From contig NZ_CM002285.1 of the NCBI RefSeq assembly GCF_000497445.1, positions 9,612,605 to 9,640,920 on the forward strand: a stretch of 28,316 bases of DNA, in the 5' to 3' direction. Position 1 is the stretch's first letter, and each line of letters begins with the position of its first letter. Of this stretch, positions 3,571 through 27,085 are shown piece by piece. The stretch is from Streptomyces roseochromogenus subsp. oscitans DS 12.976 (GTDB lineage: Bacteria > Actinomycetota > Actinomycetes > Streptomycetales > Streptomycetaceae). The position numbers and the translations under genes were made by a program. The notes beneath the pieces are model-generated. The model did not search any database, was not told where the DNA came from, and saw nothing but the letters and a program-made list of their open reading frames with translations.

Positions 3571-4014
3571 TCAGCAGGGTCCGATCGTGATCGAAGAGTG
3601 TCGTGGGACGGCGGCGCCTTCGTCTGCGACAGGTAGGCCGGCCGCGCGGAGTTGGCCGAGTGCCCGGGCGAATTGACGGCAGAGTCGTTGGTTGTCGTTG
3701 GTGAGATCGCGGTTGCGGGCGAGGGCGATTTCGAGGCGTCGAGTGAGGGAGGCTTCCGTTCCTCGTTGGCGTGCGGGTGTTGTCGGTGGCAGGGCTCGGC
3801 GGTTGAGCGACCGGAGTCGTTCGATCTCGGCTCGGATATCGCGCTGGGTGTAGAGCCAGGAACGGGAGACGCCCGCATGGCCGGCGACGATTTCGAAGGT
3901 CACCGGGGTGCCTGCGGTGTCGAGTTCGCGCAGGGTCTTGATGGTCTTGGCGCGGGTGAGCTCGTGGCGTCGCTGGGCCGAGGTCACGAGGTGTGCGCTG
4001 TTGTCAGCCCGCAT
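3571..4014 (-). CDS. DUF6262 / TnpC-like transposon protein
   Basis: This 147-residue basic protein resembles the small third protein (TnpC, DUF6262 type) encoded after the two tyrosine integrases in Tn554-like elements, thought to assist or orient transposition. Residues about 38-60 (VTFEIVAGHAGVSRSWLYTQ) look like a helix-turn-helix. The C-terminal half is Arg/Leu-rich and probably helical (LTRRLEIALARNRDLTNDNQ). It overlaps by 11 bases the stop of an integrase tail at 4004-4215, the expected tnpB-tnpC arrangement with translational coupling. The tnpA and body of tnpB that belong with it are not in the window, so it is an orphan of an older element. Neither nested element in this window carries a TnpC gene. 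Confidence 0.65.
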   Translation of the reverse strand: MRADNSAHLVTSAQRRHELTRAKTIKTLRELDTAGTPVTFEIVAGHAGVSRSWLYTQRDIRAEIERLRSLNRRALPPTTPARQRGTEASLTRRLEIALARNRDLTNDNQRLCRQFARALGQLRAAGLPVADEGAAVPRHSSITIGPC

Positions 4015-4215
4015 CGGCCGTCTCCGTGTCTTCGTCCTGATCGAGGGCGGTGATGATGCGGTCGAGGTTGTCCAGGACCTGTTGGTTCATCTGGACGAGC
4101 CGCTCTTGTCCGCGGGCCTCGGCGGCGGAGATGATCTGCAGGACTTCCTGGCGCTGCTGGCGGTGCTGGGCAAGAAGTCCCGCGTGGTGACGAACATCGG
4201 GCAGGTCAGGCAGGC
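4004..4215 (-). pseudogene. TnpB integrase C-terminal tail (older element)
   Basis: Read on the minus strand from 4215, the tail begins ACLTCPMFVTTRDFLP. This is the Cys-x2-Cys start of the zinc-finger-like tail found in large TnpB-type tyrosine recombinases. A one-base loss at TTCTTGCCCAG shifts the frame, after which it continues RQQRQEVLQIISAAEARGQE, then LDNLDRIITALDQDEDTETADAG and stop. It starts exactly where the right end of the outer element (TAGTTCAGAGAA) ends. The tail is therefore the downstream half of a tnpB whose 5' part is elsewhere. Its sequence differs from the two other tails in the window, so it belongs to another branch of the family. It directly precedes the TnpC-like gene. 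Confidence 0.65.
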
Positions 4216-4227
4216 TTCTCTGAACTA
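4213..4227 (-). repeat. Right-end sequence of the outer element
   Basis: On the minus strand this reads TAGTTCAGAGAAGCC. The first 13 bases are identical in two other places (5291-5305 minus and 14018-14032 plus). Each copy runs straight into an integrase-tail codon series or a foreign gene tail. Confidence 0.65.
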
Positions 4228-4329
4228 CCGGGGCGTCCCGTGATCGGGTGACGGGACGACCAGTCTCGGAAGGGGCCGGTATGGGGCCGGAGAACGGCTG
4301 CGAACAGCACGGGTGTTAGTTTCCTTCCC

Positions 4330-4959
4330 GTGTTGAAACACCAGGACGAGACCAGGGCGGCCTACGACGGGGTCGTCGAGCTGTATGCGTCGATGTTCGC
4401 TAATCGGTTGGAGACGCAGCCGTTCGCGCGGAACATGATCAGCACCTTCGCCGAGCTCGTGCGTGGCACGGGGAACCTGCGGGTGGCTGATGCTGGGTGT
4501 GGACCTGGTCATTTGACGGCCATGCTGCATGACTTGGGGTTGGACGCCTTTGGGCTCGACCTCTCCCCGGCTATGGTCGACCACGCTCGGCGGGCCCATC
4601 CGGCGTTGCGGTTCGGCGAAGCGCGAATGGAGGCCCTGCCGGTCGAGGACGGCGCGCTCGGTGGAGTGCTGGCCCACTACTCGATGATCCATACCCCACC
4701 TGGGGAATTGCCCGCGCTGCTCGCTGAGCAGGTGCGTGTCCTGGCACCAGGGGGCCTGCTCCTGGTGTCCTTCTTCGGGACCGAGGGGCCGGAGCCGGTC
4801 CGCTTCGACCACAAGGTGACGCCCGCCTATAGCTGGCCGGCGGACCGGTTCGCCGAGCTGCTGGCCGGGGCCGGACTCGTCACGTTCGCCCGGCTGCTCC
4901 ACGACCCAGCGACCGAGCGGGGCTTTCTCGACACCCATCTGCTGGCCCGCCGCCCGTAG
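4330..4959 (+). CDS. Class I SAM-dependent methyltransferase
   Basis: This 209-residue cytosolic methyltransferase of the methyltransferase-11/25 type has SAM-binding motif I VADAGCGPGHL (about 52-62) and an acidic ribose-binding motif GLDLSPAMV (75-83). A motif equivalent to post-I/II follows (GALGGVLAHYSMIHTPP), and later VLAPGGLLLVSFFG, the usual motif III. The substrate cannot be read from sequence. It is too short and too different to be the geranyl-diphosphate methyltransferase of the 2-methylisoborneol pathway. The GTG start has no ribosome binding site; a TAGTTT at 4316-4321 suggests a possible leaderless transcript. It is cargo of the outer integrase element, opposite in orientation to tnpA2/tnpB2. 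The start is uncertain (TTG at 4333 is an alternative). Confidence 0.75.
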   Translation: MLKHQDETRAAYDGVVELYASMFANRLETQPFARNMISTFAELVRGTGNLRVADAGCGPGHLTAMLHDLGLDAFGLDLSPAMVDHARRAHPALRFGEARMEALPVEDGALGGVLAHYSMIHTPPGELPALLAEQVRVLAPGGLLLVSFFGTEGPEPVRFDHKVTPAYSWPADRFAELLAGAGLVTFARLLHDPATERGFLDTHLLARRP

Positions 4960-5017
4960 GGCGCGGGTCGTGGCCTGCGTCGGGGTCGTGTAGATCATCC
5001 GCATGGATGAGGCTCGC

Positions 5018-5293
5018 CTAACTTGAGGGTCCTCTTGCCGTACTGATTCGTGTCGCGATCTGGCTGAAGCGGGGCATGCCGAGATCGAGCACTTGGCGTT
5101 GACGGATTTGCTCTGCATCGAGCTGGGTGAGCTTCTCCTCTGCGCTGGCGAGGCTGACTTGGAGTCCTTCGATCTCACCGAGCCACCCGTCCTGTTCTGC
5201 TTCGGCGATTCGGGCGATCAGGTTGTCGCGGATGTCGGCAAGCCGTGACCGTTGGGCCGGGTCAGGTCGGAGGAGCGAGCATCTGACACAAGC
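5018..5293 (-). pseudogene. Displaced C-terminal tail of tnpB2
   Basis: On the minus strand this reads ACVRCSLLRPDPAQRSR and continues in one open frame (ARIAEAEQDGWLGEIEGLQV, AEEKLTQLDAEQ, LDLGMPRF) to TAG at 5018, 91 residues in all. It aligns with the last part of intact TnpB1 starting at its HEHA-CVRC motif. It begins exactly at the right end of the inner element, while the matching tnpB2 body stops at the same motif at the inner element's left end (10192). Rejoining the two gives a protein of about 830 residues, close to TnpB1's 837. The Cys-x2-Cys with downstream basic/helical region is a probable zinc-binding DNA-contact tail. It has no start of its own and is presumably not translated. 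Confidence 0.75.
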
Positions 5294-5305
5294 TTCTCTG
5301 AACTA
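5291..5305 (-). repeat. Right-end sequence of the inner element
   Basis: The minus strand reads TAGTTCAGAGAAGCT, sharing 14 bases with the outer element's right end. It is followed at once by the displaced tnpB2 tail (GC|TTGTGTC...). Confidence 0.7.
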
Positions 5306-5370
5306 TCGCTTGGTTCCCGCCGAATGGGCTGTCGAGCTCATCCATGCCGGTAGGCGCGGGCCTCACGACT

Positions 5371-5880
5371 TCAGCACATCTTCCCGATCTTCAATGCTCG
5401 CGCCCGCTCTCCACTGTTCTCCGGGCGGATGCGCTCGGCCAGGCAGTGCCGGTGGGAGATGATGGTGTGGCTTCCTGGACCGTCGCTGCTGCGCGAGTCC
5501 AGGACGAGGGCGTCTCCACCTGGGCCCAACGTGATCGGTTCACCACAGAAGTCGCATCTCCAGACCAGCGACTCCAGGTCAGCAGGTCGGATGGTGAGCC
5601 GCACTGATACCGGCGGATGCCAGCGGTGGATTTGCTCGATCACTGCTTCGATCTGTGAACCGATGGGTGGAAAGAGCGCGAGTAGTTCGTCGTGGCTGCT
5701 CGTGGTCTGGGAGAACTGCTGGATCATGTCGATAGAGGCCGACAGACCAGCGTTCTCGTAACCAACGATTCCAACGAGCACACCCCATGGGTGATGGCTG
5801 AGGACCCTGGCCTGCACCTTCTGGCCAGGCATGAGCGCCAGACTCTCCGTCTCGAATCTTTCCATGAACCGCTTCCCCAT
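5371..5880 (-). CDS. S1/OB-fold-like protein with Cys motif (element cargo)
   Basis: This 169-residue soluble protein is of uncertain function. Residues about 15-98 have the rhythm of an S1-type OB fold (PGQKVQARVLSHHPWGVLVG, later IGSQIEAVIEQIH and VSVRLTI). The C-terminal part has C109-x2-C112 and a later H143-x2-C146 (HRHC), a possible zinc site. S1-like folds bind RNA or single-stranded DNA, but no catalytic residues are visible. The ATG at 5880 has a weak AAGGG immediately upstream; an ATG at 5865 with GGGGAAG six bases away is an equally good start. It is the last gene of the inner element, 32 bases after the preceding cargo gene, and probably cotranscribed with the integrases. It could be a passenger or an accessory of the element. 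Confidence 0.65.
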   Translation of the reverse strand: MGKRFMERFETESLALMPGQKVQARVLSHHPWGVLVGIVGYENAGLSASIDMIQQFSQTTSSHDELLALFPPIGSQIEAVIEQIHRWHPPVSVRLTIRPADLESLVWRCDFCGEPITLGPGGDALVLDSRSSDGPGSHTIISHRHCLAERIRPENSGERARALKIGKMC

Positions 5881-5912
5881 CCCTTAGCCCAGCAGGCCGC
5901 GCCTGGTGGCGC

Positions 5913-6374
5913 TCATGCGCGCGTGTCGTCGACGTTGGAGCCGATCTCCGCGCTCAGGGCTTGCAAAGCGTCATCGTATTGGTGACGGTCGAACTGGAAC
6001 GGGCCGAATGCCACATAGTCGCGGGCCTTGCGGTGCGGTTGCTCAAAGGCGTCCCAGGTCACGAAGTCGGCCGTCGCGGTGATGCGGGCCATGAGGGGCC
6101 AGCATCCCCACTCGCCGCATTCACAACCGAGAACGGGTGTCTTCGGCCCCATCGTGTTGGTGGACCGTCCGAGGAAGTGATCCTGCATCGGGCCGAACCG
6201 GAAGAACTCCGGGATCAGACCGCCGTAGGCGTCGCCTGCGGGCTGCATCCCGGCGGCGATCTCGAACCCGTCGACCAGCTCGGTGAGTGGTGTTCCGTCG
6301 ATGCGGGGGACGATCACGAGCGGGCCGCCGTCGCCACGGTGCTGGCAGTCGAACCGGATGTCATTGCTGGTCAT
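5913..6374 (-). CDS. Conserved protein with CxCGxxGC motif (element cargo)
   Basis: The 153-residue protein contains GCECGEWGCWPLMARI (C84, C86, C91), followed by a block VTWDAFEQPHRKARDY and then FGPFQFDRHQYDDAL. From memory these blocks recur in unnamed bacterial hypothetical proteins of similar size; no enzymatic role is known to me. The three clustered cysteines suggest a metal-binding site. The ATG start at 6374 lies 14 bases inside the end of tnpB1, so it is probably translationally coupled to it. That makes it part of the inner element's operon rather than later debris. No signal peptide or membrane segment is seen. Reality of the gene is likely; function unknown. Confidence 0.65.
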   Translation of the reverse strand: MTSNDIRFDCQHRGDGGPLVIVPRIDGTPLTELVDGFEIAAGMQPAGDAYGGLIPEFFRFGPMQDHFLGRSTNTMGPKTPVLGCECGEWGCWPLMARITATADFVTWDAFEQPHRKARDYVAFGPFQFDRHQYDDALQALSAEIGSNVDDTRA

Positions 6375-8874
6375 CCAGTGATTGTGTCAGCGAAGCCGTT
6401 CCCTCCGCCTGGGTGGGTTGAGCTGCGGCTATGCGCGGCATGCCGAGGTCGATCGCCGTACCGCCGGAAGCTCGTCGGCCCATCTGAGCAAGTTTGTCTT
6501 CGGCTCCAGCCAGGCTGACCCGGAGCCCTTCGACCTCCCCGAGCCAGCCCTCGCGCTCGGCCTCGGCGATGCGGGCGACGAGGTTGTCGCGGATCTCCTC
6601 CAACCGGCCGCGCTGGGCCGGGTCCGGCCGGAGAAGCGAGCAACGAACGCAAGCGTGTTCATGAACACAAGGGCTTGAAAAAGCGCGACCGCAGGTGCCG
6701 ATGGAGACCTTGCGCTTCTCGAAGTGCGCGAGGAAAGCGTCCCATTCCTCCTCGGTCGGCGTCCGATACTCTTCGCTGGGCCGACTGGCCCGGCGACGGG
6801 CGATGAAGGCGCGGTGGGCCTCGATGGTCTCAGCCGGGTAGATCGCCTTGTAGCCCATCGTCGTATCAAGACTCCGATGCCCGCAGAGCACTTGCGCGAT
6901 GTGCGGTGGCAGACCGTTCATGATGGCGTCCGTCACGAAGATCCTGCGGAAGTCGTGCGGGGAGAAGACGAGCAGTTCTCCGCCGGCATCGGTCAGGCCC
7001 GTGGCGGCCAGCGCGTTGATCAGAAGCTTGCGGAGCGCGGTCGGAGTGAAAGCGCGGTGCTCGGTGCCGATATCGCGCGGGAACAGCAGCGGCATCGGCG
7101 GGTTCCAGACCCGCTCGTGGACATCGTAGGAAGTTACCAGCGGGATCGCACGGCTGCCTCCTCGCAGGCGGCGGACAATGGTGGAAAGGACGTCCGCCAG
7201 TTCTGGGCTGACCAGCAGGAGCCGTTCGCTGTCGGTCTTGGACGGGGCGACCTGCGGCAGGGGCACGACTTCGCCGGTGCTCGGGAGCCGGTATTCGGTG
7301 ACGCTGTGGTGGGTCAGCTCCAGGAGTTCCTCATTGCGGATGCCGGTCAGGCGTAGGACCTCGATCGCGGCGAAGGCCCAGAAGGCTTCAGTCTCCTCGT
7401 AGGTGAGATTCCGCCGCCGTCCGGTCGAGGTCTCCTCGGCCCAGGTCATGTGCCCGGCGGCCTTGGGCGCGACGGCTCTGCGCAAGGCTCCGGCGGTGTC
7501 GGGGATCAGGTCCCCGGGCCGGGTGTGCTCGGCGGCGGCAAGTAGTTCGGCTGCGGCGCGTCGCCTGCGGTCGACGGTGTCGGTCAGCACCGGAAGGACG
7601 GGAAGCCGGTCGCGGGTGCGCTGGTCCATCCGGGCCTTGCGGTGTTTGCGGTCTTTGGCCTTGCTGATCTCGTCGTCGCTGATCGGGCAGGGCACCACCC
7701 ACGGTGCCCAGCGGGCCGGCTCTTCCGCCGCCCAGTGGGCGATGTCAAGATAGAGGGCGCGGACGCGGATGAGCTCGTCTTTGGCGTTCAGCCTGGGGCT
7801 GGCGACCTCAATGGCGGTGCCGTCCGGACCGATCGTGGTGCGTTTCTTGGTGGCGATGTCTGCCTTCCAGGCGCGAGCCAGTGCCGGTGGCAGCCGCAGG
7901 GAGTCGATGCCTGGTGAGAGCGCTTCGATCCGGGTCCAGAACAGCCCGGCCAGGGTTCGCGAGACCGCGTCCAGGCTGGTGTAGTCCAACGACGGCTGCC
8001 GTTCGCGCAGGTAGTCCACGATCAGGTCGCGGACCGGGCGGCACCGGATCGGATAGCGATCCACGAGTTCTTCGATGCTCAGCCGGCCGGCGGCAAGCCC
8101 GAACGCCCGGATTGTGGCCGGGGCGTCCTCAGGGAAGACTCCCAAGGCCCGCAGTCGAAGGTAGAAGTCGACTTTGCGCTGACCCCCGCGGACATGGACC
8201 TGGCGCAAGGTGTCGACCAGCTCCACGCAGTCGCCGACGGTGATGCTCGAGATCGACCCGCCCTTGCAGGCCAGAATCATGGCGATCCGGGTCGCCGCGA
8301 TGGTGGCCTCGCCTCGGGCGCTGGCCGGCCCGGACTCGGCCAGCTGTGCCAGCTGTGCGAACCCCTCGGGGTCGCGGACCTCGGCCATGACGGGAGCAAG
8401 GTGCTTGTGGGTGCGGGTGAGCATCCAGGCCAGGTCGGGACGGATGACATCGCCGCAGGCCAGCATCAACAGCCCGGAGGTCAGGTCACCGCGCTCATAC
8501 GACGGCGACAGCCCACTCTCGTGCAAGAAGCGCAGCGGGAGATCTGTCCAGTCCGCGCCGGGGATCTCCTCGGCGCGACTGGCCTTCCACCGCTGCTGCC
8601 AGGTATCCCCCGGGATGCTGGACAGCCAGCGCAGAAGCTTGGCGACCCCGCGCCGCCGCCCGGCCCTGCTGGCGTTCGCGGCAGCCAAGAAGGGTGGCGC
8701 CGTCAGCCGACGCAGCACCTCGTCCGCTGACTGCTCTGTCGCCGGCCACCATGCCTCCGCAGAGCGGGGCGGGAAGCGTTCCCGCAGCACGTTGTTACGC
8801 GCCCGGGCCTGTTCGACTGTTGCATTCGCGGTCTGCAGTTGGCGGCGCGTCGAGTGCTTCGTGGTGCTGGTCAT
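6361..8874 (-). CDS. TnpB1: large tyrosine recombinase of the inner element
   Basis: This 837-residue transposition integrase acts with TnpA in Tn554-like elements, cutting and joining element ends by a tyrosine-linked intermediate. The catalytic set is present: R513 (LTGIRNEELLEL), H640-x2-R643 (SPHDFRR), GHRSLDTT and the nucleophile Y675 (MGYKAIYP). The tail carries HEHACVRCSLLRPDPAQR at about 739-756, a likely zinc-binding Cys-x2-Cys segment, and then Glu/Arg-rich helices. This copy is whole: its HEHA|CVRC codons (about 6648-6661), the position at which tnpB2 is interrupted, are unbroken. The start ATG overlaps the stop of tnpA1 (ATGA). It is closely similar to TnpB2 throughout, so the elements are sister copies of one family, not recent duplicates. 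Confidence 0.88.
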   Translation of the reverse strand: MTSTTKHSTRRQLQTANATVEQARARNNVLRERFPPRSAEAWWPATEQSADEVLRRLTAPPFLAAANASRAGRRRGVAKLLRWLSSIPGDTWQQRWKASRAEEIPGADWTDLPLRFLHESGLSPSYERGDLTSGLLMLACGDVIRPDLAWMLTRTHKHLAPVMAEVRDPEGFAQLAQLAESGPASARGEATIAATRIAMILACKGGSISSITVGDCVELVDTLRQVHVRGGQRKVDFYLRLRALGVFPEDAPATIRAFGLAAGRLSIEELVDRYPIRCRPVRDLIVDYLRERQPSLDYTSLDAVSRTLAGLFWTRIEALSPGIDSLRLPPALARAWKADIATKKRTTIGPDGTAIEVASPRLNAKDELIRVRALYLDIAHWAAEEPARWAPWVVPCPISDDEISKAKDRKHRKARMDQRTRDRLPVLPVLTDTVDRRRRAAAELLAAAEHTRPGDLIPDTAGALRRAVAPKAAGHMTWAEETSTGRRRNLTYEETEAFWAFAAIEVLRLTGIRNEELLELTHHSVTEYRLPSTGEVVPLPQVAPSKTDSERLLLVSPELADVLSTIVRRLRGGSRAIPLVTSYDVHERVWNPPMPLLFPRDIGTEHRAFTPTALRKLLINALAATGLTDAGGELLVFSPHDFRRIFVTDAIMNGLPPHIAQVLCGHRSLDTTMGYKAIYPAETIEAHRAFIARRRASRPSEEYRTPTEEEWDAFLAHFEKRKVSIGTCGRAFSSPCVHEHACVRCSLLRPDPAQRGRLEEIRDNLVARIAEAEREGWLGEVEGLRVSLAGAEDKLAQMGRRASGGTAIDLGMPRIAAAQPTQAEGTASLTQSLDDQQ

Positions 8875-10115
8875 GAAGACCGCCCGAACAGCACGTCCAA
8901 GGCTTCAGGGTCGTAGCCGGGCGCTGGAGGCGGAGACACCGGCTCGGCGAGCCGGTCTGCCCGCCGGGCGTGGTGGGCCAGCACCTCGGCCACGACCTCG
9001 TCCTGGCGCGGCGCGAGGTAGATCTCGGTCGTGGTCAGATGCGCGTGCCCGAGGACCCACTGCACGTCGGTCAGCGTCAGCGCCGGGTCGCGCACCATCC
9101 GGGCGGCGGCGCTGTGCCAAAGGTCGTGAAGGGTCCAGTCCGCGCCGAAGGTGGCGTTCACCCGCTCGAACATGCGGTGGGCCCCGTGGTAGGTCAGCGG
9201 GTGAAACGGACGCCGCACCGTCCACCACACTGGCTGTGTTCGGCCCCGTGGCACCAGCCCGTGTAGCTCCTGCTGGTAGAGCCGCAGCCACACGAACGCA
9301 TCTGCGGAGGCCGGTACCTGCTGCCGGGCCCGGGAGCCCTTCCGCACAACGCTGATCAGCTGCTGCCCAGGGTCGACGTCGCACTGCCGGACGCGGATCA
9401 ACTCTGAGGCCCGGACTCCGCTGGAGATCCAAAACGCGATCATCGCCCGGTCCCGGTTCGACCGCAGCGCCGCGAACAGCGAGTTGAACCACTCGTCCGG
9501 GATCGAGCGCGGAATCCGGCGCGGAGCCGTGGCCCGGTAGCGGCTGGTCCGCTCTGGCGCCCAGGCTTCCATCGGGTTGTGGTGTGCGTGCGCACGGCCG
9601 GAACGACGAGCCAGGTCCAGCGGGAACGGGTTGAGCAACGGCCCGGATCCGGCATCACGGTGAAGGTCGTAGAACTTGCGCAGCACCGTCTCGCTATGGG
9701 CGACGGTCGACGGGGCATAGCCGAGCCCAGGGCTCGTTTTCCCAGTCACCGGGTTCGGGGCGCCGACTGTACGGGCCGACCGCCGCCTGGCTGCGGTCGC
9801 TCGCGGCTTGAGCGCCAGCTGAATCCAACAGCTGAAATCCCGAGCATCCACGCGTGTCGCTCGATCCCACGGCACCTCGACCGCGTGCAGGAACCGCCAC
9901 CACCGCAGCAGGTCCATGCCATACGAGCGGACGGTCGCCGCCGTCTTCCCGGCTGCGAGCAGTTCCTGGAAGAACACTGCGGCAGGCACCACGGCCGCGC
10001 CGTCGGCGTCGACGAGCCGGTAGGGCTCGTACCGGTCGCCGGTCTCCACCAGCCGACCCCACCGAGGAACGGTCAACCTCGACAGATTCCGCTCGGGCAC
10101 ACCATCGTTCATCAC
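8871..10115 (-). CDS. TnpA1: tyrosine recombinase with catalytic Arg replaced by Trp
   Basis: This 414-residue XerD-like integrase is the first of the tnpA-tnpB pair. The N-terminal core-binding domain (about residues 50-140, TAATVRSYGMDLLRWWRFLH) and the catalytic domain are complete. R235 (SGVRASEL) and Y366 (TEIYLAP) are in place. The box normally HDLRH reads HDLWH: residue 333 is Trp (codon TGG, 9117-9119), where sister TnpA2 has Arg. That Arg is the second arginine of the R-H-R-Y set, and its loss normally abolishes strand cleavage. The GTG start is conserved in position with TnpA2 (GTG-A-x-G-AAC-GAT); no ribosome binding site is evident, and an ATG one codon later is possible. Probably inactive unless complemented by TnpA2. 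Confidence 0.88.
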   Translation of the reverse strand: MMNDGVPERNLSRLTVPRWGRLVETGDRYEPYRLVDADGAAVVPAAVFFQELLAAGKTAATVRSYGMDLLRWWRFLHAVEVPWDRATRVDARDFSCWIQLALKPRATAARRRSARTVGAPNPVTGKTSPGLGYAPSTVAHSETVLRKFYDLHRDAGSGPLLNPFPLDLARRSGRAHAHHNPMEAWAPERTSRYRATAPRRIPRSIPDEWFNSLFAALRSNRDRAMIAFWISSGVRASELIRVRQCDVDPGQQLISVVRKGSRARQQVPASADAFVWLRLYQQELHGLVPRGRTQPVWWTVRRPFHPLTYHGAHRMFERVNATFGADWTLHDLWHSAAARMVRDPALTLTDVQWVLGHAHLTTTEIYLAPRQDEVVAEVLAHHARRADRLAEPVSPPPAPGYDPEALDVLFGRSS

Positions 10116-10153
10116 GACCGCAGACCGTACTGGGCGACGACCTCACCCGTGCC

Positions 10154-10194
10154 CTGAACTGCACAATCAATGTGGTCCGTTCAGTCAACGGGGC
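10154..10194 (-). repeat. Left end of the inner element
   Basis: On the minus strand GCCCCGTTGACTGAACGG opens the element, and GTTCAG recurs further in. On the plus strand the motif starts CTGAAC (10154-10159) and GTTCAG (10179-10184) are 25 bases apart. The sequence between them differs from that in the outer element (13691-13731), but the spacing is the same, suggesting paired recombinase-binding sites. Confidence 0.65.
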
Positions 10195-12411
10195 GTGCTC
10201 ATGAATGCACGGGGTCCCGAAGGCGCGTGCGCAGGTGCCGATGGACACCTTTCGCTTCTCGAAGTGTGCGAGGAAGGCGTCCCACTCCTCTTCGGTCGGG
10301 GTCCGGTACTCCTCGCTGGGGCGGGTGGATCGCCGGCGGGCGATGAAGGCCCGGTGGGCCTCGATCGTTTCGGCGGGATAGACCGCCTTGTATCCGATCG
10401 TGGTGTCGATGCTCTTGTGCCCGCAGAACACCTGGGCGATGTGCGGAGGCAGGCCGTTCATGATGGTGTCGGTGACGAAGATCCGCCGGAAGTCGTGGGG
10501 TGAGAAGGTGAGTGCCTCGCCGTCGGCATTGGTCAGACCGGTGGCGGCCAGTGCGTTGATCAGCAGCTTCCGGAGCGCGGTCGGGGTGAAGGCACGGTGT
10601 TCGGAGCCGATGCCTCGTTGGAACAGCAGCGGCATCGGCGGGTTCCAGACCTTCTCGCGGACGTCGTAGGCGGCCACCAGCGGAATGGACCCGGTGGGAC
10701 CGCGCAGTCGGTTGATGATGGCGCTGAGGACGTCGGCGAGTTCGGGACTGACCAGCAGAAGCCGCTCGGTGTCGGTCTTGGACGGAGCAATCTGCAGCAG
10801 TGGCACGACCTCGCCGGTGGACGGGAGCCGGTACTGGGTGATGCTGTGGTGCGTCAGCTCCAGGAGCTCCTCGTTGCGCACGCCGGTCAGGCGCAAGACC
10901 TCGATCGCGGAGAAGGCCCAGAATGCCTCCTCTTCTTCGTAGGTCAGGTTCCGCCGGCGTCTGCTGTACGTCTCCTCGGCCCAGGTGAGATGGCCTGCGG
11001 CCTTGGGGACGAGGGCTCTTCGCAGTGCAGGATCGGTGCCGGGGATGACGGCCCCGGGCTCGGTGTTCCGTGCCGCCTGGAGCAGGCCGGCGGCTGTGCG
11101 TCGCCGCCGGTCGGCAGTGCTGACCAGGATGGGCAGGACGGGCAGCCGCTCGCGGGTGCGCTGGTCCATCCGGGCTTTGCGCCGCTTGCGTTCCTTCGCC
11201 TTGTGGATCTCGTCTTCGCTGATCGGGCAAGGCACGGCCCAGGGCCCCCAGCGGGTCGGTTCCTCGGCAGCCCATTGCGCGATGTCCAGGTAGAAGGCGC
11301 GGACGCGCATGAGCTCGTCCTTGGCATTCAGGCGCGGGCTGGAGACCTCGACGCTCTTGCCGTCGGGTCCGGTGACCGTACGCTTCTTGACCTTCAAATC
11401 CTCTTTCCAAGCGCGGGCCACTGCCGGCGGCAGCCGTAGCGTGTCGATCCCCGGGGCCAGGGCTTCGATCCGGGCCCAGAACAGACCGGCGAGCGTGCGC
11501 GAGATCGCGTCCAGGCTGGCGAAGTCCAGCGACGGCTGACGCTCGCGCAGATAGTCGACCAGCAGGTTGCGTGCTGGTCGGCACTGGATCCGGTAGCGGT
11601 CCACCAGTTCCTCGACACTCAGCTGGCCCAGGGCGAGTCCGAAGGCTCGGATCGTGGCCGGGGCATCCTCGGGGAAGACCTTGAGGTCCCGCAGCCGCAG
11701 GTAGAAGTCGACCTTCTTCTGTCCGCCGCGGGCGTGCACCTGACGCTGGGTATCAATGAGTTCCACACAGTCGCCGACCGTGATGTCGTCGATCGTTCCG
11801 CCCTTGCAGGCCAGGATGGTGGCGATCCGTGTCGCGGCGATCTGGGCGTCCGTGCGCGAGCTGGCCGGTCCTGCCGCGGAGAGCTGGTGCAGGCGCGTGA
11901 ACCCGTCCGGATCCCGGATCTCGGCCATCGCGGAGGCGAGATACCGGTGGGTGCGGGTGAGCATCCACGGCAGGCCGGGACGGATGACGTCTCCGCAGAT
12001 GAGCATGAGCAGCCCGGAAGGCAGGTCCTCGCGGTCATGGGACGGTGAGGGCCCGTGCTCGCGCAGCCACTGCAACGGGATCTCCACCCAGGCGGCCCCG
12101 GGCCGGTCTTCCGCCCCGGAAGCCTTCCATCGCTCCTGCCAGGTATCCCCGGGCAGGCTGGACAGCCAGCGCAGCACTTTGGTCACCCCGCGGCGACGTC
12201 CGGCTCGGGTTCCGTTGGCCGCCGGGAGGAACGGCGGTGCCGTCAGCCGCCGCAGGGTCTCCTCCAGCGACTGTGTGGTGTGCAGCCACCGACAATCCGG
12301 TGGCCGGGGCGGAAACCGCTCCCGCAACTGGCCATTCCGCGCCTGGGCCTGCTCCGCGGTCGCGTTCGCGACCTTCAGCGGCGTGCGCGTGGAGTGCTTG
12401 ACGAGGTTCAT
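10192..12411 (-). pseudogene. TnpB2: large tyrosine recombinase, truncated by E1 insertion
   Basis: This is the body of a sister of TnpB1, starting at ATG 12411 inside the tnpA2 stop (ATGA overlap). It keeps all catalytic residues: R512 (LTGVRNEELLEL), H639-x2-R642 (SPHDFRR), GHKSIDTT and Y674 (IGYKAVYP). Similarity to TnpB1 stops at residues HEHA (10192-10203), where the left end of the inner element begins. The missing 91-residue Cys-x2-Cys tail lies at 5018-5293. As it stands the frame runs on through the element end and antisense to nothing useful until a stop at 9694, adding about 166 unrelated residues. A chimeric product with an intact catalytic domain but no zinc-type tail is therefore possible. 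Whether that product is stable or active cannot be told. Confidence 0.8.
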
Positions 12412-13652
12412 GACGAGCGTCCGAACAGCACGTCCAGCGACGCCTGGTCGTAACCTGGTGCTGGCGGTGGAGGCGTCGGCTGCACGTCCTCCCGGGCCCG
12501 GCGCGCGTGGTAGGCCAGCACGCCGGACACGACCTCGTCCTTGTGCGGCGTCAGATATACCTCCGTGGCGGACAGATGCGCGTGTCCGAGCACCCACTGC
12601 ACGTCGGCCAGGGTCAGCTTCGGGTCGCGCACCATTCGGGCGGCCGCGCTGTGCCGCAGATCGTGCAGCGTCCAGTCCGCGCCAAGCGAGGCGTTCACTC
12701 GCTCGAACATCCGGTGGGCACCGTGGTAGGTCAGCGGCCGAATCGGGCGTCGCCGTGTCCACCACACCGGCTGCGTACGACCGTGTGGGACCTGCCCGTG
12801 CATCTCCTGCTGATACAGCCGCAGCCAGACGAACGCGTCCGCCGACGCCGGCACTTGTTGGACTGCCCGCGAGCCCTTGCGTATCACGCTGACCAGCTGC
12901 TGGCCGGGGTCGACGTCGCGCTGTCGGATGCCGAGCAGCTCCGAGGCCCGGGCCCCGATGGAGATCCAGAACGCGACCAGAGCCCGGTCGCGATGCGAGG
13001 GCAGGGCGGCGAACAGCTTGTTGAACCACTCCTCGGGAGTGGAGCGTGGGATCCGCCGCGGAAGGCTGGGCCGGTAGCGGCCCACGCGCTCGGGTTTCCA
13101 CCCGTCCATCGGATTGTGGTGTGCGTGCGCGCGGCCCGAGCGGCGCGACAAGTCCAGCGGGAACGGGTTGAGCAAAGGCCCGGTGCCGGCGTCGCGGTGG
13201 ATGTCATAGAAGCGTCGCAGCACCGTCTCGCTGTGCGCGACGGTAGTCGGGGCATAGCCGGGCCCGACCGTCGGCTTGCCGGTCACGGGGTTCGGGCCGG
13301 TTCCGCTCGGTACCCACCGGCGCTTCGCAGTGTTACACCTTCCGGGCTTGGCCGTCAGCTGAATCCAGCGACTGAAATCCCGGGCCTCGACCCGGCTCGC
13401 TCGGTCCCAGGAGATGTCCACGGCCTGAAGGAACCGCCACCACCGGAGCAGATCCATCCCGTAGGAGCGAACCGTCGACGGAGCCTTGCCAGCCGCCAGC
13501 AGTTCCTGGAAGTACACCGCGACCGGCTCCACGGTCGCACCATCGGCATCGAGGAGCCGATAGGGCTCGTACCGGTCGCCGGTCTCCACCAGCCGACCCC
13601 ACCGAGGAACCGCCAACGCGGCCAGATCGCGCTCGGGCGCATCGTTCGTCAC
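12408..13652 (-). CDS. TnpA2: tyrosine recombinase of the outer element
   Basis: This 414-residue integrase is the same length as TnpA1 and collinear with it. The core-binding domain is at about 50-140 and the catalytic domain follows. All expected residues are present: R235 (GARASELL), H330-D-L-R333-H (HDLRHSAAARM), GHAH and nucleophile Y366 (TEVYLTP). The GTG start aligns with that of TnpA1. It overlaps tnpB2 by ATGA, so the pair would be cotranslated. Of the two TnpA proteins in the window this is the one expected to be active, although its partner TnpB2 is broken; pairing with intact TnpB1 is conceivable. It is about 40 bases inside the outer element's left end. Confidence 0.9.
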   Translation of the reverse strand: MTNDAPERDLAALAVPRWGRLVETGDRYEPYRLLDADGATVEPVAVYFQELLAAGKAPSTVRSYGMDLLRWWRFLQAVDISWDRASRVEARDFSRWIQLTAKPGRCNTAKRRWVPSGTGPNPVTGKPTVGPGYAPTTVAHSETVLRRFYDIHRDAGTGPLLNPFPLDLSRRSGRAHAHHNPMDGWKPERVGRYRPSLPRRIPRSTPEEWFNKLFAALPSHRDRALVAFWISIGARASELLGIRQRDVDPGQQLVSVIRKGSRAVQQVPASADAFVWLRLYQQEMHGQVPHGRTQPVWWTRRRPIRPLTYHGAHRMFERVNASLGADWTLHDLRHSAAARMVRDPKLTLADVQWVLGHAHLSATEVYLTPHKDEVVSGVLAYHARRAREDVQPTPPPPAPGYDQASLDVLFGRSS

Positions 13653-13690
13653 GACCGGTGACCGTAGCGACTACAGAGACCGTCTTCCCT

Positions 13691-13731
13691 CTGAACTGGG
13701 AAAATCCCAGTGTTCGTTCAGTCAATGGGGC
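13691..13731 (-). repeat. Left end of the outer element
   Basis: The minus strand begins GCCCCATTGACTGAACGAAC. CTGAAC (13691-13696) and GTTCAG (13716-13721) on plus start 25 bases apart, as in the inner element. Between them lies the palindrome ACTGGGAaaaTCCCAGT. The adjacent sequence on the plus strand is an integrase tail beginning VRCPMLRPDP. Confidence 0.65.
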
Positions 13732-13995
13732 GTCCGCTGCCCGATGCTCCGCCCGGATCCGACCCAGCGTCCCCGCCTTGTCGAGATCCGCGACAACCTC
13801 ATCGCCCGGGTCGCCGAAGCGGAACGGGAGGGGTGGCTCGGGGAGGTCTAAGGACTCCGAGTCAGCCTGGCCGGCGCAGAGGAGAAGCTCAACCAACTGG
13901 ACACGGAGGAGCGGCGAAGGTCGACCGTCGTGCACCTCGGCATGCGGACCTTCGGGCAGATCGCCACACGGACGAGCGAAGTCGCGACTCCATGA
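13732..13995 (+). pseudogene. TnpB C-terminal tail of a third, inverted element (E3)
   Basis: On the plus strand this reads VRCPMLRPDPTQRPRLVEIR and continues ARVAEAEREGWLGEV, stop (TAA 13849-13851), GLRVSLAGAEEKLNQLDTEE and VVHLGMRTF, ending at TGA 13993-13995. It aligns with the TnpB1 tail and closely with the displaced tnpB2 tail, starting just after the HEHA-C codons. It carries one in-frame nonsense codon where TnpB1 has Glu. The orientation is opposite to tnpA2/tnpB2. Its upstream half is not in the window. It is followed at 14018 by the family's right-end motif in the same orientation, so it is the distal end of a separate element, decayed. Confidence 0.7.
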
Positions 13996-14017: not shown

Positions 14018-14032
14018 TAGTTCAGAGAAGCC
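14018..14032 (+). repeat. Right end of the third element
   Basis: TAGTTCAGAGAAGCC on the plus strand matches the right ends at 4213-4227 and 5291-5305 (both minus). It follows the E3 integrase tail and abuts a foreign gene tail. Confidence 0.6.
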
Positions 14033-14116
14033 GCCTGTGAGTGGATCACCACGGCCGTGGACACCGGCGAGGTCGACGTGGACGAGGAACTGGCGAAACT
14101 GCTGCGAGGCGAGTAG
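14030..14116 (+). pseudogene. C-terminal fragment of an unidentified gene
   Basis: Immediately after the E3 right end an open frame reads AACEWITTAVDTGEVDVDEE followed by LAKLLRGE and TAG. It ends two bases before the RacP start, as in an operon. It looks like the end of the gene that E3 invaded. I do not recognise the family; the stretch is too short for a call. Confidence 0.4.
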
Positions 14117-14529: not shown

Positions 14530-15444
14530 CAAAATGGGAGGCGGACGCAATGAGGCAGCGCCGCTACCCCTCTGACACCACCGATCTTGAGTGGTCTCTC
14601 ATCGAACGGCTGCTGACGGTGCCGGCCTGCCAGACCCAGCGCGGCGGCCGCCCGGAGGCACATCCCCGGCGCGAGATCGTCGACGCCCTGCGCTATATCG
14701 TCGACACAGGATGCAAGTGGAGTGCCCTGCCGCAGGACTACCCGCCCTTCAAGACGGTGTTCGGGTTCCTCACTCGCTGGTCCGCGGCCGGGGTTTTCAA
14801 CCTCATCCGCGACCAGCCGCGGCGCCGCATCCGGAAGAGCATGGGTACCTCCCCGCACCCGGTGGCTGTGGTGATCGACTCGCAGTCGGTCAAGGTCGCC
14901 GCCACCGTGCCGCGCTCCACATCCGGGTATGACGCGGGGAAGAAGATCCCGGGCAGGAAGCGCCATATCGTCGTGGACACCAAGGGCCTGCCGCTGTTCG
15001 TCATGGTCACCCCGGCCGATATGCACGACAGCGTCGCGGCCCGCGAAGCCCTGTTCCGGCTGCGGCTGATGCACCCCGAGATCACCATCGTCTGGGCCGA
15101 CTCGGCCTACGCCGGCACGCTCGTCGACTGGGCCAAGTCCTTCCTCCACCTCACGCTCAAAACGGTGAGCAGACCCAAGGACGCGAAGCGGTTCGTGGTC
15201 CTGCCGCGCAGGTGGGTGGTGGAGAGGTCACTGGCATGGCTGCTCCACGCCCGACGGAACGCGCGGGACTACGAGACGCTGCCCCAGCACTCCGAGGCGA
15301 TGCTCACCCTCGCGGCCATTACCCTGATGACCCGCCGGCTCACCCGGCAACCCATCCACCCCAATGCCGCGGCGCCACGCCCACAGGCCGCACTTCGAGC
15401 CGCTTGACCCCAGTCACCTCGCCCTGATGACGGGCGTTTCTCAG
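14526..15444 (+). mobile_element. IS5-family insertion sequence (tentative ends)
   Basis: The transposase gene at 14550-15407 is intact. Tentative termini are CTGACAAA at 14526 and its imperfect complement TTTCTCAG ending at 15444, giving about 0.92 kb. The match covers only about seven of eight bases and no target duplication is evident, so the edges are provisional. Confidence 0.45.
14550..15407 (+). CDS. IS5-family DDE transposase
   Basis: This 285-residue transposase is in one frame. The N-terminal DNA-binding part has YPSDTTDLEWSLIERLL and the family block LRYIVDTGCKWSALP. The catalytic triad is D110 (VAVVIDSQSVK), D184 (VWADSAYAG) and E225 (RRWVVERSLAWLLHARRNAR). These blocks match the IS5 family common in Streptomyces. 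Start ATG 14550 follows GGGAGG at 14535-14540. All catalytic residues and full length are present, so the element may be active. It sits directly behind the RacP gene and ends before a strong hairpin. Confidence 0.9.
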   Translation: MRQRRYPSDTTDLEWSLIERLLTVPACQTQRGGRPEAHPRREIVDALRYIVDTGCKWSALPQDYPPFKTVFGFLTRWSAAGVFNLIRDQPRRRIRKSMGTSPHPVAVVIDSQSVKVAATVPRSTSGYDAGKKIPGRKRHIVVDTKGLPLFVMVTPADMHDSVAAREALFRLRLMHPEITIVWADSAYAGTLVDWAKSFLHLTLKTVSRPKDAKRFVVLPRRWVVERSLAWLLHARRNARDYETLPQHSEAMLTLAAITLMTRRLTRQPIHPNAAAPRPQAALRAA

Positions 15445-22684: not shown

Positions 22685-25600
22685 ATGTGCGGCCGCCGAC
22701 GCCGACTGCTCATTTCGCTTTCCCACGAACGATTCGAGAAACAGTTGAGAAAAATGAAACCCGGCAGTATCGCGGCGAGAACGGTCTCGCATGCGATACG
22801 CGTGCTCTGTCTGATTCTGCTGCCCATCGCACTTGCGGCCGGCCTTCTCGGGAACGCTGCCTCCCGCGCTGTGGCCGACGGCGCTCCAACCGGTGGCGGC
22901 AGTGCCGTCACCGACGAGGTGACCGACCGCGCCCGGGTACTCAACCTGTGGTCGACGGGTGGCCCCGGGGTGCGGGCCGCTGCGGAAGTCGCCCTGACCG
23001 GCAGCGAGGATGACGTACGACACTTCCTCGACACGGAGAACGACGCCGCGTTCCAGGACGAGCGCGTTGCCGTGGCACAGCTCGCCAGTGTCGGCGGGCT
23101 GAGCTTGCAGGACGCGGCCCGCAAGGCTCTGGACGGAACGCAGGACGACCTAGAGGCCTTCCTGTACGACGGCTGGCGGGATCCGTACTTCCAGGATCAG
23201 CGGGTTCAGGTCGCGCAGATCATCGATGCGGGCGGCCCGGAGGTCCGGAAGGCGGGGCAGGCTGCGCTGGACGGGACGCCGGGTGACATCAAGGCGTTCT
23301 TGTCGACCGGTCAGTACGATCGGCGGGCGCAGGACGAGCGGGTCGAGGTCGCGCAGATCATCAGCGTAGGCGGCTCTAACGTGGTGGCGGCGGGCCGGAT
23401 CGCGTTGAACGGTTCGGCGGACGACATCCATCAGTTCTTGGAAGTCGGCCAGTATGTAGCGCGTGCCCGTGATCAGGAGCACGCCACGGTCGCCCAGCTG
23501 GCGGCGCAGGCCACGAAGGCCGGCAGCAAGGCGGCGGCCCAGACCAAGGCCGCCAAGGACGCCTCCGTGCGTGCCGTGAAGGCGGCGAATCTCGCCAAGG
23601 CTGCCGCACAGAAGGCGGCGGCCCAGACCCAGGCCGCCAAGAACGACTCCCTGCAGGCCGCTTCAGCGGCCGGCCGGGCGGCGTCGGCGGCCAAGCAGGC
23701 CGCGGAAGCCGCGCAGGAGGCGATCGACGCGGCGGCCGCCGCCAACAACTCCGCACGGCTGGCGGCCAGCGCCGCTCAGCAGGCTGCTTCGGCGGCGGTG
23801 GGTGCCGCGCAGGCAGCAGCCCAGGCGCAGAGTGCGGCTGCGGATGCGGCCAATGATGCGGGCAAGGCTTCCGCAGCGCGTAAAGCGGCCGAGGACGCCC
23901 GTACCGCGGCCAAGGGTGCGCGGCTGGCGGCGGACGCGGCCACACAGGCCGGCAACGCGGCCAGCGAGGCGGGCAATGCCGCGAAGGCCGCCGCCGATGC
24001 CGGCACCAACGCCGACGCCGCCGCGGACGCGGCCGACCAGGCCAACACCTACGCCACCCAGGCCGGCGTCCACTCCAGCGAGGCCGGCGTGGAGGCAGCC
24101 GCCACCCACCGCCATGCGCAGGAGGCCAACCGCGCCGCGAACGCGGCCGCAGCACTGGCCGCAGAGTCGGCAAGTGCGGCGAACGACGCGCGGGATGCGG
24201 CCAATAACGCGGCCGCACATGCGGACAACGCCGCGAAGGACGCCGATGACGCGGCCAAGCACGCTGGCGAAGCAGCCACGGCTGCCAAGCAGTCGGCGGC
24301 GCATGCCAAGGCCGCCCAGGACGCGGCCGACGCCGCTACCGCGGCCGTCGCCAAGGCGCAGAAGACCCACGCCACCGCCGTCAAGATCGAGACGGAGGAG
24401 CTGACCGAGAGCACCAACGCCGGCATCGCGCAGGCCAAGGACCTCAAGGCCCAGCAGGACCAGCGAGCAGCCGCGGACACGGCGGCTGCCCAGCAGATCA
24501 AGGACACCGACGCGCAGGCGAAGAGCCTGGCCGCGCAGTCCGCACAGTCCGGAGCCGACCCCAAGACCATCGCCCCGGCCGGCCGCAAGGTCGCGCTGGC
24601 GACGATGCAGACCGGCGGCGCGTGGAGCAGGGGCGCCGCCGAGGTGGCCCTGACCGGCACTGACCAGGATGTCGTCGACTACCTCACCACCCGCCGCACG
24701 CAGGGCGCCCAGCAGGACGACCGCTACCGCGTGCAGACCCTGGCCCAGGAGAGCTCCCTGGCCTCGGTACGCAGTGCCGCCGAGGAAGTGCTCAAGGGCA
24801 GTGACGATCAGGTCTCGGCGTTCCTGGCCACCGGGCAGTACGAGGCCGGGGCGCAGGACTTCCGGGTGGCCATCGCCCAGATCATCAACGCCGGCGGACC
24901 GGTGGTGCAGCAGACCGGCCGGGCCGCACTGGACTCAGGCGACCCGCAGAAATACCGCCAGTTCCTCACCACCGGCCAGTACCAGGCGCGTACCCAGGAC
25001 GAACGCGTTCGCGCCGCCCAGCTCGCCGACCCCAAGAACAACGGCAGCGGCCCGCAGGTGAAGTCCGCGGCCCGGATCGCCCTGGAGGGCCCCGATGACC
25101 TGCTGGACCAGTTCATCCAGGTCGGCCAGTACAAGGCCCAGCGCCAGGACTACCTCGGCGCCACCCACACCGCGCAGATCGCCCAGCTGATCGCGGACGC
25201 CGCCGGCATCGCGGCCACCGCCCAGCAGAATGCCGCCCAAGCCCACAAGGCCGCCGCCAACGCGGTCAGGGCTCAAGACCAGGCAGCCGACTGGGCCAAG
25301 AAAGCCGACGCCTCCGCCAAGCAGGCCAAGGGCTACGCCGACCAGGCCGCCAAGTCCGCCAAGGACGCGCAGGCCTCCGCCGACCAGGCAGCCGACTCCG
25401 CCCACACCGCCGCCAAGGCCGCCGCCTCCGCCAACCAGGCCGCGAGCGACGCGGCCACCTCCGCCCTCGACGCCGCCGGCTCCGCCCAGTGGGCCCAGGC
25501 CTCCGCCAGCGCCGCCTACACCGCCGGACAGCAGGCCCGTGCCTCCGAACTCGCGGCCGGCAAGGACTCCAAGGCCGCCGACCAGGCTTACAAGGACGCC

Positions 25601-26803: not shown

Positions 26804-27085
26804 GTGAGTGCCATGACGGACGAAGTGGCGGCGCTGCGAAATCTTGTGGCTGAGGGCGCAACGTTTCTGGAGGTGCTCGAATTCCTGTCCCGACGGGGCC
26901 CTCGACCCCTTACTCCTCTTGAGTTTCTCAGGGTGTTCCAGGAGGAGCTCGGAATCTCGTTCATCGAATCACGGAACATGTTGGAGTATTTCGACCCCGA
27001 CATGAAACCGATGGTCGATGCAGCGCTCATCAACGAGCGTGGGCGCCTCCTTCTGCAGAGGCGAGCCGACTGGCCGATGGAGTAA
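26804..27085 (+). CDS. Candidate immunity protein for the upstream toxin
   Basis: A 93-residue cytosolic protein (VAALRNLVAEGATFLEVLEF, later ELGISFIESRNMLEYFDPDM) whose GTG at 26804 immediately follows the toxin stop TAG at 26801-26803; GGAGGG lies at 26795-26800. ATG 26813 is a possible alternative start. Complete overlap of regulation with the toxin, small size, no signal peptide and a helical acidic character are the usual signature of an immunity protein, which binds and neutralises its toxin in the producer. I do not recognise the family, and no active-site motif is visible. A strong terminator follows directly, so toxin and immunity gene share one transcript. Confidence 0.65.
   Translation: MSAMTDEVAALRNLVAEGATFLEVLEFLSRRGPRPLTPLEFLRVFQEELGISFIESRNMLEYFDPDMKPMVDAALINERGRLLLQRRADWPME

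Follow-up and report, generated by a model that had tools for sequence, protein, structure and literature searches.

How a transposon's recombinase gene comes to be split by a second transposon of the same kind, at the codons of one conserved motif, is the question raised by a 28,316 bp stretch of the genome of Streptomyces roseochromogenus subsp. oscitans DS 12.976 (contig NZ_CM002285.1, positions 9,612,605 to 9,640,920). This whole stretch is termed the window here, and positions refer to it unless stated otherwise. Within it the gene tnpB2 of a two-recombinase element, E2, is interrupted by another such element, E1. The answer that we consider very probable is that E1 is a Tn554-like transposon lacking TnpC, inserted by TnpA and TnpB at one DNA site in the tnpB genes of other Tn554-like transposons.

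E1 is a complete element of 4901 bp on the minus strand (5294-10194), with both ends found and the same ends in relatives. Its left end consists of the hexamer GCCCCG (10194-10189), which is the same or nearly the same in the clade members described below regardless of target, followed by TTGACTGAAC, the two together spanning 10194-10179, and its right end is GTTCAGAGAA at 5303-5294. Between the ends, all on the minus strand, lie tnpA1 (8871-10115, 414 amino acids; Pfam Phage_integrase 7.2e-15 and Phage_int_SAM_1 6.5e-08), the long tnpB1 with its own intact tail (6361-8874, 837 amino acids; Phage_integrase 1e-09) and two cargo genes for uncharacterised proteins of 153 (5913-6374) and 169 amino acids (5371-5880), neither of which matched Pfam or NCBIfam at 0.001.

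The host gene tnpB2 starts with ATG at 12411 on the minus strand and is open for 739 codons to ...FGTPCIHEH at 10195, where E1 begins; this 5′ part (10195-12411) matches a TnpB profile hidden Markov model (HMM) to position 780 of 867. Beyond E1, at 5018-5293 of the same strand, 91 codons and a stop (5020-5018) begin in frame with ACVRCSLLRP... (hexamer GCTTGT at 5293-5288, then VRCSLLRP), are open and match the HMM from 778 to 864. The 5′ part is 86-87% identical to the TnpBs of three relatives, at loci L012, L017 and L013, and the best match of the tail is L017 (92% over 90 amino acids), a locus also among the top relatives of the 5′ part. As far as can be told from these matches the tail belongs to tnpB2. 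The initial annotation had placed the missing tail of tnpB2 4.9 kb off at 5018-5293, with an intact tnpA1/tnpB1 pair and two cargo genes in between. Both proposals are borne out by the fit of the two parts to one gene, by the size of E1, and by the open frames with Phage_integrase matches in both recombinases; the tail at 5018, whose origin that annotation had made a test of its reading, fits tnpB2. A whole-genome pattern search with the target consensus, of HEHAC/HENAC form, returned one exact match, the sole intact one in the genome, within E1's own tnpB1 (6640-6663, minus strand), and the reversed-pattern control returned none.

The position of the break within the protein was compared across an alignment of 30 TnpBs, whose first row is without the start methionine so that TnpB1 numbers are one higher. 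Residues R513, H640, R643, H666 and Y675 of TnpB1 are invariant and are presumed here, from the roles familiar in the tyrosine recombinase family, to be the likely catalytic residues. The motif C728-x7-C736-x-H738-E-H740-x-C742-x2-C745 is invariant or nearly so, and its arrangement of cysteines and histidines makes it likely to be a zinc-binding knuckle. The break falls after H740, downstream of all the likely catalytic residues. In the AlphaFold model of TnpB1 (836 residues, mean predicted local distance difference test score 76) it lies within a low-confidence segment (717-749) that precedes two helices (751-774 and 777-802). The best Foldseek matches of the model were the tyrosine recombinases XerH, Tn1549 integrase and Cre; the TnpB1 sequence itself gave no match among solved structures at 0.01, and TnpA1 none among phage records at 1e-40. 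The broken TnpB2 thus retains its catalytic domain and loses, with its last 91 residues, part of the likely zinc knuckle and the helical tail, and the insertion probably disables the host transposon.

Recurrence of the site and geometry of the joint

Relatives of E1 were collected with TnpA1 as the query, giving 78 loci from one-genome-per-species contigs (the best 80 of 142 relatives) together with loci from 392 genus and 394 class genomes; in addition 95 plasmid records match TnpA1 at 1e-80, of which eight were read. All were picked by TnpA similarity, the flanks being no part of the selection. The TnpB HMM and a TnpA tree gave a supported clade of 35 distinct TnpAs with E1 and E2 included. 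Set aside were duplicate contigs and identical TnpAs, the TnpA fragments L135 and L136 without a left end, L026 with a split TnpA, L138 and L139, the five outgroup rows of the 124-row tree and the plasmid records beyond the eight.

At the same tnpB codons were found 30 of the 35 clade members, 28 by their left junction and two (L013 and L020) by the right junction only, their left flanks being too short while the tnpB site is visible at the right end. Left junctions were readable in 33 members, so that 28/33 lie at these codons. The 5′ part of the target stands upstream in 16 direct junctions (E1, L007, L009, L010, L012, L015, L018, L021, L022, L023, L025, L027, L030, L086, L090 and L146) and the tail in 12 inverted ones (E2, L008, L011, L014, L016, L017, L019, L029, L079, L087, L091 and L142). 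Both halves of the target were present on their proper sides in 20 of the 30, being 13 direct (E1, L007, L009, L010, L012, L015, L021, L022, L023, L025, L030, L086 as L129, and L146) and 7 inverted cases (L008, L011, L014, L016, L029, L079, and L087 as L130). The two target halves at L007 share the best relative L046, with 94% and 98% identity. The right end was located in 29 of the 35 and adjoins tnpB in 24 of these, does not in three (L024, L144 and L145) and is unclear in two (L019 and L143); in the other six it was not located. The targets cover several TnpB subfamilies, including one with an ANACLTCP motif (L022 and L030, with a variant in L146). In the plasmid set two of the five clade members read (L142 and L146) are at the tnpB site. 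Among the plasmid matches listed, a clade member of about 68% identity occurs in 15 Rhodococcus records (H3-H16 and H18), L144 and L145 being the two read. Since the relatives were chosen without regard to their flanks, 30 of 35 at one site is more than chance.

The claim of the initial annotation that this family targets the tnpB genes of relatives at the Cys motif is thereby extended from one window to other genomes, and its proposed check on the right ends gave 24 of 29 abutting a tnpB. Its further wording, a transposon that parasitises transposons, holds for the pattern of insertion at tnpB, but the verb is a functional one, not provable by sequence alone. The pattern also reaches further than that annotation had it, as other clades insert into transposase genes of unrelated elements.

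Comparison of the two orientations defines the joint. At the left end of direct insertions the target shows ...HEH or an equivalent, and the right-end GTTCAGAGAA is followed by the codons for Ala-Cys-x-x-Cys. In inverted insertions the cut is on the opposite side of the same six bases, and the joints of the two orientations are exactly 6 bp apart, which points to a 6-bp crossover at the Ala/Ser-Cys codons of the conserved Cys/His motif. The left hexamer is mostly GCMCCR and the right one an Ala/Ser-Cys hexamer. At L023 and L130, TCCTGC (Ser-Cys) stands at the right end in place of the Ala-Cys hexamer, while the left hexamer is still GCCCCG; Ser-Cys is common at this position in other TnpBs. 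The right hexamer therefore derives from the target and the left one travels with the element. No target duplication is seen, the flanks ending and beginning at adjacent target codons in the two-sided cases E1, L007 and L023, so that target bases are neither lost nor doubled. This geometry fits a tyrosine recombinase, which would act by a 6-bp staggered exchange.

According to the explanation proposed here, the target would be the codons of the conserved Cys/His motif, likely a zinc knuckle, in tnpB. A circular intermediate would be formed and TnpA and TnpB would then carry out the 6-bp staggered exchange, which would leave the target hexamer on the right of the element and keep the near-constant, element-borne hexamer on its left. 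In the case of E1 the last 91 residues of TnpB2 are removed and the catalytic domain is spared, with the host transposon probably disabled. A conserved motif in a gene that spreads and is dispensable may offer a target in many genomes together with a ride on mobile DNA. That E1 is mobile, and that its insertion brings benefit or harm to the host transposon, we infer from sequence.

The idea that an element protects its own target site by silent changes was also considered and rejected, as sequences like the site in its own tnpB (GCTTGTGTCAGATGC) were found interrupted too, tnpB2 among them; by eye, own and hit sites thus show no immunity signature.

The wider family and competing explanations

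The left end TTGACYGAAC was present at most 450 bp upstream of tnpA in nearly all of 119 elements of the wider family (the tree with its five outgroup rows removed), exactly in 100, with one mismatch in 14 and with two in 3, being absent in 2, so that left joints could be located here too. The gene at the joint was identified by Pfam or NCBIfam matches of the flanking frame, by the TnpB profile or from the right flank, and by peptide reading or the match of a close relative for L022, L024, L030, L041, L072, L107, L117/L120 and L145. Several of these matches are below Pfam's own cut-off, and the AAA ATPase listed below may not be a mobile-element gene. This places 68 elements in mobile-element genes and 22 in genes of other kinds, with 29 unassigned.

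The 68 insertions in mobile-element genes represent 18 distinct sites, with the tnpB Cys/His motif holding 35 elements. The other sites are in genes for Tn3 transposase (three positions), IS110 (two), IS21 (two), IS1380, IS256, IS4/5, group II intron reverse transcriptase, a TnpA-like recombinase, TnpB at another site, an rve-domain protein, an ExeA-like AAA ATPase, a serine recombinase and TnpC (weak, E 0.007). The interrupted gene was recognised on either side of the insertion for Tn3 (L033, L047, L050 and L147), IS110 (L029, L064, L068, L069 and L078), IS1380 (L060 and L071) and IS21 (two insertions at L062), among others. The 22 other target genes include those for Ku, an ATPase of type II secretion system (T2SS) type, DUF6192, endonuclease VII, SPDY-domain, NlpC-like and HNH proteins. 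Of the nine rows of a second clade, five occupy the same tnpB codons (L082, L083, L084, L106 and L109), one (L112) is in a Tn3 transposase gene and three are unassigned.

As a rough baseline, a hand count over eight plasmid neighbourhoods with annotation gave mobile-element genes for 10 of 71 coding sequences; genes of the elements themselves and three genes of target transposons were excluded. Against this baseline 68/119 gives a P of about 1e-27, but the elements are related. Counted by distinct sites, with each of the 29 unassigned elements taken as a separate non-mobile site, the figure is 18/59 (P 0.0009), and with the least certain labels (AAA ATPase, TnpC and rve) set as non-mobile it is 15/59 (P 0.015). 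Chance is thus an unlikely source of the excess in mobile-element genes. The sample was drawn by closeness to TnpA1 and is therefore not an even picture of the family.

Two further observations concern single loci. In Rhodococcus koreensis (L062:9001-16853) two family members occupy two positions of apparently one IS21-type transposase gene. In other genera L117, L120 and L125 are, by eye, inserted at the YLWGGDG codons of NlpC/P60-like genes, three loci in two genomes.

With modest confidence, we lean to the broader view that this lineage makes its living in the conserved codons of transposase and recombinase genes that belong to other elements, with many target switches (Tn3, IS110, IS21, IS1380, IS256, IS5, group II intron reverse transcriptase, serine recombinase, and tnpA, tnpB and tnpC within the family), disabling competitors and riding their spread; it may also shuffle TnpB C-terminal tails by recombination at the 6-bp core. 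The pattern of insertions backs such a lineage of specialist parasites of transposase genes.

Doubtful in comparison, and yet the strongest alternative, is that the recombinases read a DNA motif that has nothing particular to do with transposons, and that the Cys-rich codons of tnpB merely happen to match it. Recombinase recognition must be of DNA, and L024 and the Rhodococcus branch L144/L145 sit in other genes, so that the clade is not absolutely tied to tnpB. That 30 of 35 members use one codon position across several TnpB subfamilies, and that sister clades with different motifs are again mostly in mobile-element genes (68 of the 90 identified), speaks against it; if mobile targets brought no advantage, housekeeping genes would be expected more often.

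It is very improbable that the arrangement arose by homologous recombination among related tnpB genes or by chance nesting within a plastic chromosome arm, the same-codon joint being found in many species, in both orientations and with constant element ends. In favour of such an origin, the window lies near the end of the 9.66 Mb contig, the two flanks of E2 come from different genes, and tails look exchanged in a few pairs (L013/L075 and L017/L046). Among 50 intact TnpBs the rank correlation with 5′-part identity was 0.46 for the tail versus 0.80, 0.69 and 0.59 for three stretches ahead of the joint. At the DNA level, L013:3532 and L075:12447, which belong to different clades, have identities of 0.68 and 0.75 in the two full 60-bp blocks nearest the joint on its upstream side and 0.92 in the first block downstream. 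Of six pairs so compared only this one jumps at the joint itself, the change being about 70 bp downstream of it in L017/L046 and upstream of it in L012/L042. Exchange of TnpB tails at the 6-bp core is no more than hinted at by these data. That the tails belong to the inserted elements, as a gene end carried to repair the target in the manner of some phages, is still less probable, for although tails regularly adjoin right ends, the tnpB1 of E1 is complete with a tail of its own and the foreign tail is found beyond the right end of E1, the 5′ half is on the other side in 20 cases with both halves at L007 matching one gene, and the tail stands at the left end in inverted insertions.

Insertion of E1 and its clade by their own recombinases at the tnpB codons is therefore retained, with several points that weigh against it. 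Five of the 35 clade members are not placed in tnpB (L024, L144, L145, L143 and L116). L024 is by eye in a TetR-like gene, the Rhodococcus branch L144/L145 interrupts a Cys-rich stretch of an HNH endonuclease gene, and the flanks of L143 and L116, as well as that of the off-tree L026 with its split TnpA, were assigned to no gene; in the plasmid set three of the five clade members read lie outside tnpB. Concerning tnpB2 itself, L012, the nominal top match of the 5′ part and level with L017, ranks only 12th of 51 for the tail, the second match of the tail is a different relative, L046 (88%), and similarity rankings of tail and 5′ part agree weakly in several cases. The tails that adjoin the two ends of E2 come from different tnpB genes, L017 (at contig ends) and perhaps L019 resemble E2 in this flank mismatch, and L016 has an extra inner tail, so that further rearrangement must be assumed at these loci. 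Neither a circle nor an empty site was seen, and transposition was not observed. A model drawn from L016, in which the order tail, left end, right end, tail would arise by deletion between two left ends, was dropped, the inner tail being without a clade-type right end.

If true, the broader view describes a natural case of transposons controlling transposons, in which the host element is crippled while its guest finds targets across many genomes. Hyperparasitism among mobile elements would become testable with a small two-recombinase system, and the enzymes would form a set of natural tyrosine recombinases with clade-specific, apparently switchable target sites.

E2 and the rest of the window

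E2, an older element of E1's clade which carries E1 in its tnpB2, spans 4216-13731 on the minus strand, with the right end GTTCAGAGAA at 4225-4216 and the left hexamer GCCCCA at 13731-13726. It contains tnpA2 (12408-13652, minus strand; Pfam Phage_integrase 7.4e-16), whose product is 76% identical to TnpA1, and as cargo a gene for a methyltransferase dependent on S-adenosylmethionine (4330-4959, plus strand; Pfam Methyltransf_25 9e-18). Directly at its right end is the tail of another tnpB, of the ANACLTCP type and apparently frameshifted (4004-4215, minus strand), where the right end is followed by ACLTCPMFVTTRDFLP and then by the frame shift, as judged against the tails at L022 and L030. Next to this tail and outside E2 comes a tnpC-like gene (3571-4014, minus strand; Pfam DUF6262 3.4e-09). 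At the left end of E2 lies the tail of a third tnpB (13732-13995; HMM 772-819 and 821-863), reading VRCPMLRPDPTQR... from the joint and with an in-frame stop after WLGEV; it is on the plus strand, inverted relative to E2, which makes this an inverted junction. The initial annotation had counted these as two further tnpB tails beginning at the same point, and had spoken of three independent junctions. Both tails are real, though one is apparently frameshifted and the other is inverted, at the left end of E2, and stopped in frame; the codons are the same at all three junctions, but one junction belongs to E1 and the other two both to E2.

The right end of a third element, the E3 remnant, is found on the plus strand as GTTCAGAGAA at 14020-14029; the next codons (14020-14035 in all) read AACEWITTAVDTGEVDVDEELAKLLRGE* (ACEWITT...) and are not like a TnpB tail. 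E1 would be the youngest layer in the window, since its host gene tnpB2 is otherwise open, whereas the tails at the ends of E2 have decayed. Relic fragments like tnpB1 (L005 and L006) lie about 9.5 kb outside the window, at 9602800-9603080 of the contig. To the right of the nested elements a frame at 14550-15407 reads by eye like an IS5-type transposase. Elsewhere in the window, at 1242-2441, a frame reads by eye like a terpene synthase. At 22685-27085 a large Ala-rich protein is encoded, the C-terminal part of which reads like a HINT module, with a small gene downstream; by reading, these are perhaps a polymorphic toxin and its immunity gene.

Relation to known elements

Among bacterial elements, the well-known site-specific ones insert at tRNA genes, radC or other loci of the host. 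The target of Tn554 is radC, and the E1 clade differs in residing in tnpB. Within the literature consulted, the nearest cases of mobile elements targeting mobile elements at specific sites are the res-site hunters of the Tn5053 family and IS4321/IS5075, which use different enzymes and target res sites or transposon ends, not transposase codons. No report of a preference for transposase genes in this family was found among titles and abstract openings of the open-licence literature.

The class itself is known. Actinobacterial Tn554-like elements, including a variant without TnpC (Famint36/41), have been described (Van Houdt et al. 2012, PMC3414803); the section on this class names no target gene and suggests that several similar attB sites could exist. 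E1 resembles the Famint36/41 class of that section in gene content, host phylum and occurrence on plasmids and chromosomes. It has an adjacent tnpA1 (414 amino acids) and abnormally long tnpB1 (837 amino acids) in the same direction, both with Phage_integrase, and no DUF6262 (TnpC) match was found among the scanned genes of E1 or E2, the DUF6262 gene at 3571 being outside E2. The plasmid pBD2 in a table of PMC3414803 is the record that carries clade member L144. Insertion into transposase genes, its occurrence in both orientations and the offset of 6 bp go beyond the section cited.

Without tnpC, E1 is distinct from Tn554 sensu stricto. Tn554 and Tn552-II of staphylococci are described as having tyrosine recombinases, carrying tnpC and showing 6-7 bp that differ between the junctions, with a plasmid coding sequence as the target of Tn552-II (PMC12486829, PMC10214605), and a title cited in PMC10214605 states that Tn554-type elements make no target duplication. 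Like Tn554, E1 makes no target duplication and has a crossover in the 6-7 bp range whose bases differ between the junctions. In the models given for Tn552-II and for SE elements the target bases are at the left end (PMC12486829, PMC10214605), left being the tnpA side by our reading; the E1 clade is unlike these models in having the target hexamer at the right, non-tnpA end, as seen in L023 and L130. SE elements occur mainly in Gammaproteobacteria with four core genes, including Tfp and Srap, and a 6-bp footprint, and SE-6945 entered insJ of IS3 (PMC10214605). Like E1 they have a large tyrosine recombinase beside an ordinary one, a site preference and the 6-bp footprint, but no specialisation on transposase genes is described for them in the account cited. 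RIT elements have three recombinases; one group is inside the transposase gene of a Tn6049-related transposon, others are in radC, and near-identical copies occur at the same genomic location according to the authors (PMC3414803). They are thus like E1 in their tyrosine recombinases and in insertion into a transposase gene, and unlike it in that E1 has two recombinases and not three in tandem. Measured against these systems, what is described here is a new behaviour of a known class.

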